NCBI RefSeq assembly: GCF_001629705.1
Contig: NZ_CP015378.1
Coordinates: 1,860,001-1,924,000 of the forward strand
Origin: Fictibacillus phosphorivorans
Lineage (GTDB): Bacteria > Bacillota > Bacilli > Bacillales > Fictibacillaceae
Direction of reading: 5' to 3'
DNA: 64,000 nucleotides
Below the pieces are notes generated by a model. That model was not told the DNA's origin. It ran no database searches and saw nothing but the letters and a program-made list of their open reading frames with translations. Shown here piece by piece: positions 22,892 through 42,340 of this stretch (position 1 is its first letter; each line of letters starts with the position of its first letter). A program made the position numbers and the translations under genes.

Positions 22892-23133
22892 AACTATAAC
22901 TCAGATCATTTATGAAAAAGAGAGTACTCTGTAAGGATGTTCATAGCGAGCAAGGAATCGGTGTAAGCCTTGCACTACTTACAGACGAAGCGCACTTTGG
23001 AAATGTTTGCTTGAAACGAAGTAGAGCAGACCGGGACTTCCCGTTAACAAGTCAAGTGGCCTTTTGGCAACGAGAGTGGTACCGCGGTCAATATCCGTCT
23101 CTTCTATTAATTTAGAAGAGGCGGATTTTTTTA
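22892..23133 (+). promoter_or_regulatory. T-box leader of argS, candidate specifier CGC (Arg)
   Basis: tRNA-sensing riboswitch. The T-box sequence AGAGTGGTACCGCG is at 23073-23086. Stem I is recognisable: CTGTAAG (22929-22935) pairs with CTTACAG (22978-22984). Below it the loop-E strands AGTA (22923-22926) and GAA (22987-22989) frame the specifier loop, and codon CGC (22991-22993) followed by A fits the specifier position. The UGGU bulge would pair with ACCA, that is a discriminator A. Uncharged tRNA-Arg should stabilise the antiterminator and raise argS transcription. Confidence 0.88.
23095..23133 (+). terminator. T-box leader terminator before argS
   Basis: Twelve-bp stem CCGTCTCTTCTA / TAGAAGAGGCGG followed by seven T; mutually exclusive with the antiterminator formed by the T-box sequence. 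Confidence 0.88.
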
Positions 23134-34429: not shown

Positions 34430-34704
34430 CAGCGCTTCAACGTGCTAAAACTGTTTATAACTTTATAAAACAAATCGCAATGAAAGAACAGCAGTAGTGA
34501 AATGGTTCCCTGTTATTAGAGAGCTGATGGTGGTGCAAATCAGTACACAGCCTTTCACGAATTACAATTCTTGAGCAAGCTTTTGTAAAAAAAGCCGGAA
34601 AAATTTCCGTTAACAAAATGAAGGTGGCAAAGGTTGTTTATTTGCTGTCAGGGTGGTACCGCGATAATTATTCGTCCCTGCTTATTAGCAGGGATTTTTT
34701 TGTA
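34430..34704 (+). promoter_or_regulatory. T-box leader of the aro operon, specifier UAC (Tyr)
   Basis: The T-box AGGGTGGTACCGCG is at 34650-34663. In Stem I, GTGAAA (34497-34502) pairs with TTTCAC (34553-34558); below it AGTA (34493-34496) faces GAA (34559-34561), and after one base the codon TAC (34563-34565) followed by A occupies the specifier site, which means tyrosine. The UGGU bulge matches a discriminator A. Low charged tRNA-Tyr should switch on aroC-aroB-tyrA-aroA. The 633-base gap before aroC holds this leader, its promoter and the palindrome at 34252. Confidence 0.9.
34675..34702 (+). terminator. T-box leader terminator before aroC
   Basis: Perfect stem TCCCTGCT / AGCAGGGA with loop TATT, then seven T. 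Confidence 0.9.
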
Positions 34705-40135: not shown

Positions 40136-40228
40136 AGCACACACCCTTTTCAGAATAATATAAATATTTAAAACTATTTCGACAAAAAAAGCAAATACCC
40201 TTTCTTTTTTACTCAACTTTATTCCTAA

Positions 40229-40257
40229 TTGCATATTAAGTAATAATACCATATACT
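40229..40257 (+). promoter_or_regulatory. Candidate promoter of the ABC-F leader
   Basis: TTGCAT (40229-40234), 17-base spacer, TATACT (40252-40257); transcript would start near 40264, 37 bases before the leader ORF. Confidence 0.6.
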
Positions 40258-40300
40258 ATTACTAGAATATTTTATAAATTCTTAAAAGGAGGTGTAAGGC

Positions 40301-40405
40301 ATGCTTAAAGGTGTACAAATGTTTGACTGGTTGGTCGTTTTCCGTGCAATTACGTACGTATTTTCAAAAATTGGCGGAGTCTGTCCATTTCCAGTTAAAA
40401 CATGA
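40301..40405 (+). CDS. Leader peptide of the ABC-F gene (34 aa)
   Basis: Short reading frame with one of the strongest ribosome sites in the window (AAGGAGG, 8 bases before ATG 40301). It encodes a hydrophobic/aromatic peptide starting MLKGVQMFDWLVVF and ending CPFPVKT. It is followed by a terminator hairpin (40449-40482) and then the ABC-F gene, the arrangement seen for ribosome-mediated attenuation of antibiotic-resistance ABC-F genes. Its last codons (AAAACATG, 40397-40404) can pair with the 3' arm of the terminator (CATGGTTTT). Confidence 0.6.
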   Translation: MLKGVQMFDWLVVFRAITYVFSKIGGVCPFPVKT

Positions 40406-40448
40406 AAGTACATCACAAAGTAACCTTACCCTATCCTTTTTTATTGTT

Positions 40449-40482
40449 AACCATGGGCAGGTATGTTGCTCATGGTTTTTTT
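40449..40482 (+). terminator. Leader terminator/attenuator before the ABC-F gene
   Basis: Stem AACCATGGGCA / TGCTCATGGTT (one mismatch) with loop GGTATGT, followed by seven T in total. It lies between a promoter-leader ORF and the ABC-F gene, so it should act as an attenuator. TCCTTTTTT (40434-40442) is perfectly complementary to AAAAAAGGA (40489-40497) and may form an alternative fold. Confidence 0.75.
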
Positions 40483-40529
40483 GTATCCAAAAAAGGACAG
40501 TGGCATTGGATTAAAAGGAGAAAATGAAA

Positions 40530-42149
40530 ATGATTATATGCACTGTTCATCAACTTAAGAAAATGTATGGCGGAAACGAGATCCTAAAAAACATATCTTT
40601 TGAAATTCACGAACAAGACCGAGTAGGTATAGTCGGACAAAATGGTTCAGGAAAGACGACCCTGTTTAAGCTGGTAAGTGGTGTTGACCATCCGGATTCA
40701 GGTTCTATAGCCATCAGAAAGGATGCAGAGATCGGTTATTTGGAACAACTTCCTGAGCATTCAGAGAATATGAGTGTATATGACGTAGTTTCTGCAACGT
40801 TTCAAGAAATCAAGAAAATTGAAAGTGAGATTCAGAAGGTTAATACCTTGTTAAGTGATCCAGAACAATCGCAACGATTAGAGAAAAATTTAAATCGGCT
40901 TTACAGGTTGCAAGAAGAATTCGAAGAACTTGACGGTTATGCGATTGAGTCAAAGATAAATGGCGTTTTAGCTGGGTTAGGTCTAACTCAACTCTCTCAT
41001 CAACCATTTATGCAACTCAGTGGAGGGGAACAAACGAAGGTCGGTCTAGCCTGTTTACTACTAAAAGAACCTGAGCTATTACTCCTAGATGAACCTACCA
41101 ATCACCTTGACATCGAAACGATGAATTGGCTAGAAAGCTATCTTCAAAAATATAAAGGTTCTGTTATTATTATTAGCCATGATCGCTATTTTTTAGATAA
41201 AGTGACATCAAAGACTATTGATATTGAAGATGGTGAATGCACCTTATATCATCAAAGTTATTCAGGTTTTCTAAAAGAAAAAGAAAATAACCTTTTATTA
41301 GAATTTGAGAAGTATGAAGAACAACAAAAGAAGATAAAAAAGATTAAAGAATCGATCAAACAACTAAGAGACTGGGGTGCTCGCTCAGGAAATGAAAAGT
41401 TCTTCAAAAGAGCGAGGAACATGGAAAAAGCACTTCATCGAATACAGAGTATGAAACGCCCTAAACTTGAACGGAAAAAAGCGGCATTTGAATTCTCAGT
41501 AAACAAGAGAAGTGGGCAGGACGTTGCAGTAATAAAAAGGCTTAGTAAATCAATCGAAGGTCGTTCAATATTAAGTAATCTTGAACTACAGATTCGATAT
41601 GGTGAGAAGTTAGCTCTCGTCGGTAAAAACGGTTCAGGAAAATCAACGTTTCTCCAGACACTACAAACTCTAGACCACAACAGCGGTACGATAAACCTTG
41701 GTCCTTCCGTGTCGATTGGTTATCTTTCTCAAAAGGGACTAACTGCTGAATCAACTCAAACTGTACTTGATATTTTCAGAGAAAACGTACCGATGGAAGA
41801 AGGAGAAGCTCGGCACCATCTAGCAAAGTTTTTGTTTTACGGTGCATCTGTTTATAAAAAAGGAAATGAACTAAGCGGAGGAGAACGAACACGACTGAGA
41901 CTTGCACAGCTTGTATATGAAGGATTCAATTTCTTGATTCTGGATGAACCAACAAACCATTTGGACATTGATTCCCGTGAAGCATTAGAACTTGCACTAG
42001 AGGAGTTTGATGGAACGATCTTATCAGTATCCCATGACCGCTATTTTATGAACAAACTATTTGAGCGTACCATTTGGTTAGAAGAGGGAAGCCTAGAAAG
42101 TTATAACGGGAATTTTGATTATGCACTTGAAAAGCGGTTAAGCAACTAA
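40530..42149 (+). CDS. ABC-F ATPase, probable ribosome-protection type
   Basis: 539-residue soluble protein with two ATP-binding domains and no membrane segments. Walker A GQNGSGKTT and GKNGSGKST, signatures LSGGEQTKV and LSGGERTRL, Walker B LLLLDEPTNHLD and FLILDEPTNHLD. A charged interdomain linker (about 240-320, with RDWGARSGNEKFFKRARNME) would reach into the ribosome; such linkers set antibiotic specificity. Translation factor or resistance protein, not a transporter. The leader and attenuator upstream favour the resistance role (inference). ATG 40530 lies 9 bases after GGAG; ATG 40524 is also possible. Confidence 0.85.
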   Translation: MIICTVHQLKKMYGGNEILKNISFEIHEQDRVGIVGQNGSGKTTLFKLVSGVDHPDSGSIAIRKDAEIGYLEQLPEHSENMSVYDVVSATFQEIKKIESEIQKVNTLLSDPEQSQRLEKNLNRLYRLQEEFEELDGYAIESKINGVLAGLGLTQLSHQPFMQLSGGEQTKVGLACLLLKEPELLLLDEPTNHLDIETMNWLESYLQKYKGSVIIISHDRYFLDKVTSKTIDIEDGECTLYHQSYSGFLKEKENNLLLEFEKYEEQQKKIKKIKESIKQLRDWGARSGNEKFFKRARNMEKALHRIQSMKRPKLERKKAAFEFSVNKRSGQDVAVIKRLSKSIEGRSILSNLELQIRYGEKLALVGKNGSGKSTFLQTLQTLDHNSGTINLGPSVSIGYLSQKGLTAESTQTVLDIFRENVPMEEGEARHHLAKFLFYGASVYKKGNELSGGERTRLRLAQLVYEGFNFLILDEPTNHLDIDSREALELALEEFDGTILSVSHDRYFMNKLFERTIWLEEGSLESYNGNFDYALEKRLSN

Positions 42150-42237: not shown

Positions 42238-42340
42238 CATTCACGGGCCGTACGGTGAGCCTCCTGCCGCTTTGCGTCATTAGGAGTCACCACGTCACCA
42301 CCTGTTAGTTACAGTGGCTAGAACCTATAGGACAAAAGTT
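42238..42340 (-). repeat. Decayed Bacillaceae intergenic repeat, minus orientation
   Basis: Read on the minus strand it carries CAGGTGGTGAC, GACTCCTAATGACGC, AAAGCGGCAGGAGGCTCACC and GGCCCGTG, the core of the same GC-rich element as at 42570-42698, with one end eroded. Part of a 681-base gene-free gap. Confidence 0.55.

Follow-up and report, generated by a model that had tools for sequence, protein, structure and literature searches.

Ribosome-mediated attenuation of ABC-F genes is already known (as described in the cited parts of PMC9226507, PMC10314930, PMC10201436 and PMC12421871), and the leader peptides given in those parts are short: MIN, MRI, MK[L/Q], MAGN, MYLIFM, MLV and MVGDDDISG. 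For leaders of the vmlR type, the relevant section of PMC9226507 lists the tripeptide forms MIN, MDN, MDK and MRK. Attenuation is also reported in passages of PMC4335068 and PMC5418344 for erm(K)/erm(D), and a section of PMC2965389 describes 'ABC-leaders' upstream of transporters in bacilli. Here we describe a leader with a long peptide in a 64,000-nucleotide (nt) stretch of Fictibacillus phosphorivorans DNA (NZ_CP015378.1, positions 1,860,001 to 1,924,000; hereafter the window, whose numbering we use throughout), part of a host chromosome assembled as one contig of 4.23 Mb. On the + strand at 40229–42149, a promoter, a 34-codon leader open reading frame (ORF), an intrinsic terminator and an ABC-F gene follow one another, and we consider it likely that this leader is a ribosome-mediated transcription attenuator of the chromosomal ABC-F gene. 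Comparison with related genomes shows a conserved ORF of the translated type, a rival stem, a terminator, a motif kept at the nucleotide level and an association with resistance-type genes. We found no description of this long-peptide leader family, or of a motif shared across genes in this way, in the open-licence papers searched; one 'ABC-leader' of PMC2965389, as that section presents them, could be a member of the family.

The order ribosome site, leader ORF, terminator and ABC-F gene is found in all 18 genomes of the genus. At the family level, 32 of 34 genomes have an ABC-F match, and a leader and terminator lie upstream of 31 of these 32, the exception being L097. Transcription in the window would begin from a sigma-A type promoter, TTGCAT-N17-TATACT (40229–40234 and 40252–40257), whose hexamers match the consensus at 8 of 12 positions, hence its absence from the promoter scan list; both hexamer regions align across the genus. 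The leader Shine-Dalgarno sequence, AAAAGGAGG (40284–40292), retains its GGAGGTGTAAG in 18/18 genus genomes and doubles as the 5' end of a long stem considered below. It is followed by the leader ORF, MLKGVQMFDWLVVFRAITYVFSKIGGVCPFPVKT (40301–40405, 34 codons, ATG to TGA). A preliminary description of this DNA had named the promoter, the leader ORF with its strong ribosome site, a stem with a T7 tail and the ABC-F gene, and each was found where it had been placed. Comparison among relatives also agreed with that description, in that ORF and hairpin are kept, most change in the ORF is synonymous and the stems carry compensatory changes.

Leader ORFs in the 18 genus genomes are 34–41 codons long. 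Ten of the peptides, that of the window included, read approximately MLKGVQMF[DN]WLVVFRAITYV...IGGVC, seven read ...RSITYV...NWWSLS (NWISLS in L081), and L083 reads ...RSITYVMGQDGRSLS. The conserved peptide element at codons 15–20, RAITYV in the window (40343–40360), is of the type [RC][AS]I[TF][HY] and is a candidate stall region; ribosome site, start and peptide element are retained across genera. The ratio of nonsynonymous to synonymous polymorphism (pN/pS; 17 sequences) was 0.22 over leader codons 1–20 and 0.12 over codons 11–20, as opposed to 0.67 and 4.5 in the other two frames, and none of 300 column shuffles reached 0.22. Past codon 20 the two larger leader groups are offset by one nucleotide, and GTCTGTC is nevertheless kept in 18/18. 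Because pN/pS is low in codons 1–20 and GTCTGTC is kept despite the frame offset, the early part of the ORF is, on this comparison, under selection for the peptide that it encodes, and the later part for its nucleotide sequence.

The transcribed leader is predicted to be strongly folded. The segment 40270–40530 had a fold z of -4.98, with none of 200 shuffles equally stable, and a scan of the region found 4 terminators where 1.4 were expected. The intrinsic terminator (40449–40482) comprises a stem at 40449–40477 (12 pairs, loop of 5) and a T7 run at 40476–40482. Upstream of it, a long stem at 40284–40440 would serve as an anti-antiterminator that buries the leader Shine-Dalgarno sequence and ORF. 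We counted this stem (40284–40351 paired with 40369–40440) and the terminator jointly on 17 sequences, and compared them with 500 shuffles and with slid controls. Cells were paired at a rate of 93.5%, compared with 37–52% in the slid versions; terminator cells alone were 98% paired. Eight pairs had changed on both sides, six in the long stem and two in the terminator, whereas shuffles gave a mean of 2.9 (0/500 as high) and slid versions gave 0–6. Clear examples are 40326:40395, which is A-U in 11 sequences but G-C in 6, and, within the terminator, 40450:40476, which is A-U in 11 but C-G in 4. On four of the five measures none of the 500 shuffles was as good. A scan of the locus with Rfam returned nine matches up to E = 10, all below threshold, and no family reached its gathering score.

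The structure proposed to compete with the terminator pairs CTGTCCAT (40381–40388) with ATGGGCAG (40453–40460). These positions were paired in 93.4% of cells across 17 sequences, and the pairing in the window outdid shuffles at p 0.015. This antiterminator is attractive, if not proven, because it uses GTCTGTCC, sits ahead of a ribosome at RAITYV and would take the 5' arm of the terminator. The preliminary description had placed the antiterminator elsewhere, between AAAACATG (40397) and CATGGTTTT (40471). That complementarity is real, but AAAACATG occurs in only 2 of the 18 genus sequences (L001, which is the window, and L067), and we dropped this candidate. A further pairing from the same source, TCCTTTTTT (40434–40442) with AAAAAAGGA (40489–40497), does exist, and most genus members have it in the equivalent position: L083 keeps it with altered complementary letters (TTACCCATC/GATGGGTAA), and six loci of one sister genus have the partners TACCCATTC/GAATGGGTA or TACCCATCC/GGATGGGTA. 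Measured against shuffles it is weak (p<=0.05 at 5 of 31 loci, median 0.26), and we retain it as a possibility.

The later part of the ORF carries a nucleotide motif, TGGCGGAGTCTGTCC (40372–40386), which is a candidate RNA polymerase pause signal as well as an antiterminator arm. Across Bacilli, the motif of this leader family takes the form GGGANNNGTCTG(T/C)CC followed by a T-run. An elemental pause signal consists of G-10 with Y-1 G+1, and a NusG-dependent pause has TTNTTT at -11 to -6 and, 11–12 nt upstream of the RNA end, a hairpin in the RNA (both as given in part of PMC12288461). In elemental-pause numbering, G-10 of the window is 40373, T-1 is 40382 and G+1, the G of GTCTG, is 40383. 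Among the 31 aligned family leaders there is no variation at seven positions (G-10, G-9, G-4, T-3, T-1, G+1 and C+3). The window has G-10, T-3, T-1, G+1 and C+3, five codons past an element of the [AS]I[TF][HY] type, which places its leader in this family; its motif is a degenerate one (TTGGCGGAGTCTGTCC) that overlaps the leader ORF, and in its own group the full GGGA is missing and the motif is shifted by 1 nt. Judging from the consensus in that part of PMC12288461, the T-run directly ahead of the terminator (40437–40442), which overlaps the stem, is a candidate TTNTTT-type element.

We sampled 40 upstream regions of related ABC-F genes in the class, which were 39 of 49 consecutive list rows plus G253 from lower down. 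They were picked regardless of leaders (the skipped rows being eight of genus g49, G405 and G117) and drawn after the results of the motif pattern were known; five of the skipped rows carry the motif. A peptide-level search that allowed any codon found G-x-x-[LMIVF]-[SPAT]-x-[FLIYW] within a ribosome-site-led ORF in 31 of the 40. The glycine codon in those 31 was always GGG, and the next conserved codon was CTG in 25, ATG in 5 and GTG in 1. At the nucleotide level the motif was present in 38/40 regions, L175 and L210 being without it, and seven of the nine loci outside the 31 keep it out of frame or past the leader stop, as judged by eye. The nucleotide pattern used for the 31 in-frame loci fixed G-10, T-3, T-1 and G+1, so these counts are not independent; independent support for the motif comes from the 31-leader alignment and the peptide-level search. 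Of 15 leaders picked by hand, 14 have a spacing of exactly five codons between the [AS]I[TF][HY]-type element and the motif, and the fifteenth has no regular element. Another 20 regions, selected in part by motif, yielded 15 with leader and motif, which we counted solely in the motif-terminator pairing test described below. That it is kept out of frame or past the leader stop indicates that the motif works at the level of nucleic acid, and it may be a signal at which RNA polymerase pauses.

The motif is also found beyond ABC-F genes. A permissive pattern, CGGGANNNGTCTGTCC, matched 133 sites in 111 of 398 genomes of the class, as against 25 sites for the reversed control (by our own count), and is noisy. 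At least 49 of the 133 sites could be matched by hand to an ABC-F match on the same strand 148–819 nt downstream, and 22 of 30 such loci had a resistance-type gene (marginal in L149, 1.1 kb away in L154), while 8 had none. A stricter pattern, GGGANNNGTCTGTCCTTTTTT, gave 42 sites in 40 of 299 genomes of the order and 0 for its reversed control. Among the 30 of these 42 sites that we examined, 28 precede resistance-type or major facilitator superfamily (MFS) genes, namely ABC-F (12), MFS (7; that of L244 lies 0.9 kb away), RlmA-like (5), Cfr (2), Erm (1) and Mph (1), an assignment made with reference proteins from the same loci, which assigns genes and is no independent test. The other two sites comprise one before ribD and one without an assigned gene. 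In the ribD case (L250, G333:C12:58819-58839) the site lies ~170 nt before the ribD-like gene and may reflect chance or a pause site in a riboflavin leader.

We compared eight representatives of the downstream proteins with NCBIfam. Two passed, Cfr with 638.6 (cut-off 550) and Erm with 248.7 (cut-off 212), and MphL (563 for a cut-off of 612; L164), MefA (309.7/675), Msr (618.9/680, a partial protein) and the RlmA-type matches scored below their cut-offs; the MFS proteins of L241 and L243 had no NCBIfam match above cut-off. By eye, 16 of 30 GGGANNNGTCTGTCCTTTTTT leaders encode an ErmD-like peptide that ends ~42 nt before the motif. The B. licheniformis locus L280, predicted by RGI as ErmD, has the same arrangement, with the leader peptide MTHSMRLRFPTLNQ, which ends ~42 nt before the motif, and with CGGGATCAGTCTGTCC. 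Four of 22 plasmid records were examined. The Macrococcoides canis mef(F)-msr(G) plasmid and a P. megaterium plasmid that carries a putative RNA methyltransferase and msr have the same ErmD-like arrangement with the same ~42-nt distance, and the fourth record ends before the gene. A search of the motif loci (24 sources) with Rfam gave no curated family above cut-off other than rliI, considered below, and Bacillaceae-1 upstream in L095.

Because the same motif occurs in leaders of Cfr, Erm, Mph, Mef-like, Msr-like and RlmA-like genes, the link of the window leader to ribosome-targeting drugs is strengthened indirectly. We tentatively propose, at something short of an even chance, that GGGANNNGTCTG(T/C)CC + T-run is a single interchangeable module for pausing and synchronisation that independent antibiotic-sensing leaders of Bacilli share, and that it sets the distance between polymerase and ribosome whatever the peptide; the proposal would span ABC-F, Cfr, Erm, Mef-like, Mph, Msr-like and RlmA-like genes. 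With its presence in 38/40 sampled ABC-F upstream regions, the motif is common to leaders of several unrelated resistance-type genes directed at ribosome drugs. Should the motif prove to be a pause signal, this would account for the way in which ribosome and polymerase stay in step in such attenuators, and if the module exists as proposed, the motif could guide a search for new drug-response genes. The leader family, too, offers a handle for undescribed inducible resistance genes.

One gene of this kind may lie in the host itself. A second, attenuator-like leader in G000, on the minus strand of C1 at ~3,385,300–3,386,100 (L172, L263), consists of a 9-codon ORF (VTCMPTFNL), CGGGAGAAGTCTGTCT and a terminator, and precedes a gene of 166 amino acids (aa) whose product has no Pfam match. 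The 166-aa gene is present in 16 of 18 genus genomes (L172, L263–L278), and ORF and motif are kept in 15 of the 16. We regard it as a candidate for an undescribed drug-response gene.

In the mechanism that we propose for the window, the unstressed leader RNA would form the long stem, a structure that the comparison supports, which hides the leader ribosome site and GTCTGTCCA; the terminator would then form and transcription would end before the gene. A drug acting at the peptidyl-transferase centre or exit tunnel would stall the ribosome near the RAITYV codons, where it would cover the 5' side of the stem and leave GTCTGTCCA free just ahead. Free GTCTGTCCA could pair with ATGGGCAG in the 5' arm of the terminator, a nearly invariant pairing whose presumed effect is read-through. 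The motif would detain RNA polymerase near 40382 and give the ribosome time to catch up, a step that we propose because the motif matches the pause consensus and is independent of reading frame. Upon read-through, pairing of 40434–40442 with 40489–40497 may additionally free the ABC-F ribosome site. We infer that ribosomes stall at RAITYV, that antitermination proceeds through GTCTGTCC, that the polymerase pauses at the motif, that drugs induce the gene and that its ABC-F product protects ribosomes.

The gene itself (40530–42149) encodes an ABC-F ATPase of 539 aa with two ABC domains and an ABC_tran_Xtn linker (Pfam), and is preceded by the Shine-Dalgarno sequence AAAAGGAG (40513–40520), recognised from the sequence and the genus comparison. 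Translation probably starts at ATG 40530 (MIICTVHQ) rather than at 40524, because an in-frame ATG equivalent to 40524 is missing in 14 of 17 other genus genomes; L068, L069 and L075 have it. GC-rich insertions separate terminator and gene in L076 and L079. The protein scored 451.1 bits with NCBIfam NF000355 (generic 'ribosomal protection-like ABC-F'; cut-off 380). Two of its paralogues in the same genome pass as well (L002, 477.6; L004, 404.3), and a third does not (L005, 350.1). Since L002 and L004 pass too, the NF000355 result says little, and the name alone is no proof of resistance. Cut-offs of the named NCBIfam resistance subfamilies were missed: Vga 314.5/725, Msr 308/680, Sal 297.9/725, Lsa 251.6/750, OptrA 311/1450 and CplR 285/780. 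The EttA (394) and Uup (380) profiles outscored the Vga and Msr profiles, and in a comparison with solved structures EttA, Uup and YbiT came slightly ahead of VmlR-type and PoxtA proteins. At E<=1e-160 there is a single ABC-F match per genome throughout the 18 members of the genus. Internal stop codons interrupt the matched ABC-F region in G025, G019, G024 and G162, possibly marking decayed genes. The Ectobacillus and Rossellomorea ABC-F genes (L022 and L025) share a different conserved upstream region, from about -370 to -20 of the start, in which we noted by eye possible mini-ORFs (MLFME/MFFME) and, at the gene's ribosome site, a complementary stretch.

Several other explanations have to be weighed. 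The leader might be a pure RNA element, an attenuator that binds a ligand or protein and in which the ORF is incidental. Such an element would suit a leader that is strongly conserved in its nucleotides and folds very stably, but pN/pS is low in the leader frame and in neither of the other two, a value that column shuffles never reached, and ribosome site, start and peptide element persist across genera, which makes this explanation highly improbable. A leader that does depend on translation could be autoregulatory and sense stalled translation instead of drugs: ribosomes would stall on it when ABC-F activity runs short, with a hard peptide or amino-acid shortage as the trigger, and the gene would be induced by its own lack. 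The single ABC-F match per genus genome and the lead of the EttA and Uup profiles over Vga and Msr are consistent with this idea, as is the statement in part of PMC10314930 that MsrD lowers its own induction. We nonetheless give it a low chance, given that the same motif lies before Cfr, Erm, Mph and Mef-like genes, whose products are not general translation factors.

Two more explanations concern the motif. It could be a ribosome-arrest motif of the peptide (NG-x-x-L-S/P-F/I-F) and no nucleic-acid signal, as its in-frame position with conservative residues in 31/40 sampled ABC-F leaders would allow. A peptide constraint does not sit well with a glycine codon that is GGG in 31/31 and a next conserved codon that is always NTG, nor with the seven further loci in which the motif persists outside the frame or past the stop, the ErmD-type leaders that carry it ~42 nt past the stop codon and the 15 leaders of the 166-aa gene in which it lies outside the 9-codon ORF, and we think this explanation quite unlikely. 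Alternatively, antiterminator pairing with the terminator might alone account for conservation of the motif, as the complementarity in the window and a tendency among ErmD-type leaders (type II; median p 0.10 over 18 loci, of which 4 reach p<=0.05) would suggest. We examined this pairing at 99 loci with single-base shuffles, dropping 8 without a terminator (5 type I, 3 type II); the type labels come from a rough pattern, and some ErmD-like leaders (e.g. L237 and L251) fell into type I. At the 73 type I loci the median p was 0.53, with 4 at p<=0.05, and all loci combined gave p 0.07. We rejected pairing as a general cause of motif conservation and consider it unlikely to be the whole explanation.

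The attenuator interpretation favoured here has points against it as well. The same 73 type I loci, where the motif pairs with the terminator no better than shuffles do, speak against the antitermination step; its pairing shows no covariation in the 17 sequences, and equilibrium folding with the 5' side masked keeps the terminator as the best structure at 24/24 edges. The support for the stem and terminator is qualified by the count of further pair types, which did not exceed shuffles (273/500), by the slid control at +3, which has 6 both-side-changed pairs to the 8 observed, and by the fact that kinship of the sequences alone can outdo shuffles in a covariation count. Within the group of 10 genomes to which the window belongs, the motif lies outside the reading frame and is followed by a short T-run, which may weaken the role of the motif here. 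Lastly, the resistance label of the gene is non-specific, as the passing paralogues L002 and L004 illustrate.

Elsewhere in the window, two T-box leaders lie at 22903–23105 and 34471–34682 (118.3 and 116.1 bits). A dispersed repeat, GTGAGCCTCCTGCCGCTTTGCG, lies just beyond the gene at 42255–42276 and at 36 other places in G000; allowing <=2 mismatches, the 37 sites compare with 0 for the reversed control.

Among catalogued RNAs, the leader has a counterpart in Listeria. Listeria monocytogenes NZ_LR134400.1 encodes an ABC-F protein 45.9% identical to that of the window, at a gene that we take to be lmo2760. The Rfam model rliI (RF01487) matches there at L279:2200-2438 with 282.6 bits and ends at a terminator 65 nt before the annotated ABC-F gene; within it lies a 36-codon ORF, MFLLNARTSIAKFLYIVRAIFSVIAVTLAKSAQKTV, with VRAIFS and an out-of-frame TTGGCGAAGTCTGCCC. 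rliI thus shares with the window a leader before a homologous ABC-F gene, a RAIF element and a model that runs from leader to terminator. RF01487 had no match at E<=10 in window positions 40200–40560. Leaders of family f31 (L205, L208, L223 and L231) scored 33–37.5 bits with rliI (gathering score 45; E 1e-6 to 2e-5), those of L252 and L204 scored 26.9 and 21 bits, and an overlap of Hrs13 with f31 leaders was weaker and below cut-off. rliI was reportedly found as a discrete small RNA and is catalogued as an sRNA; these features suggest that it is probably the leader of an attenuator and not an sRNA that acts in trans. A term search of the main text of three Listeria papers (PMC3911899, PMC4186813 and PMC4179725) did not find the name rliI.

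The window leader resembles several characterised attenuators in design and differs from each in its peptide. With the erm(D)/erm(K) attenuator of Bacillus it shares a leader ORF with a strong ribosome site, a stem over the leader and an intrinsic terminator. The erm peptide, however, is another one and stops 42 nt before the motif, whereas the degenerate motif of the window overlaps the ORF; the window peptide reads MLKGVQMFDWLVV... and contains no MTHSMRLR-like stall peptide of the ErmD/ErmK type. The B. subtilis vmlR leader, in the part of PMC9226507 cited, likewise precedes an ABC-F gene and combines an upstream ORF, an anti-antiterminator, a terminator and, as proposed, a further layer at the gene's own ribosome site. 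Its upstream ORF is the tripeptide MIN, whereas the window leader has 34 codons of conserved sequence. The preliminary description, which had likened the locus to vmlR, is supported by conservation in proposing a translated leader and terminator that control the ABC-F gene, and not in the detailed likeness. At msrDL and the mef leaders, too, a stalled ribosome blocks a terminator before an ABC-F or efflux gene, with the peptides MYLIFM and MTASMRLR, which are unlike that of the window (passages of PMC10314930 and PMC4335068). B. subtilis tlrB (yxjB), according to part of PMC6851288, has a leader peptide, MIIQFIRYR, that also differs from the window's, and there both stalling on the leader peptide and pausing of RNA polymerase are needed for induction of the ribosomal RNA methylase.

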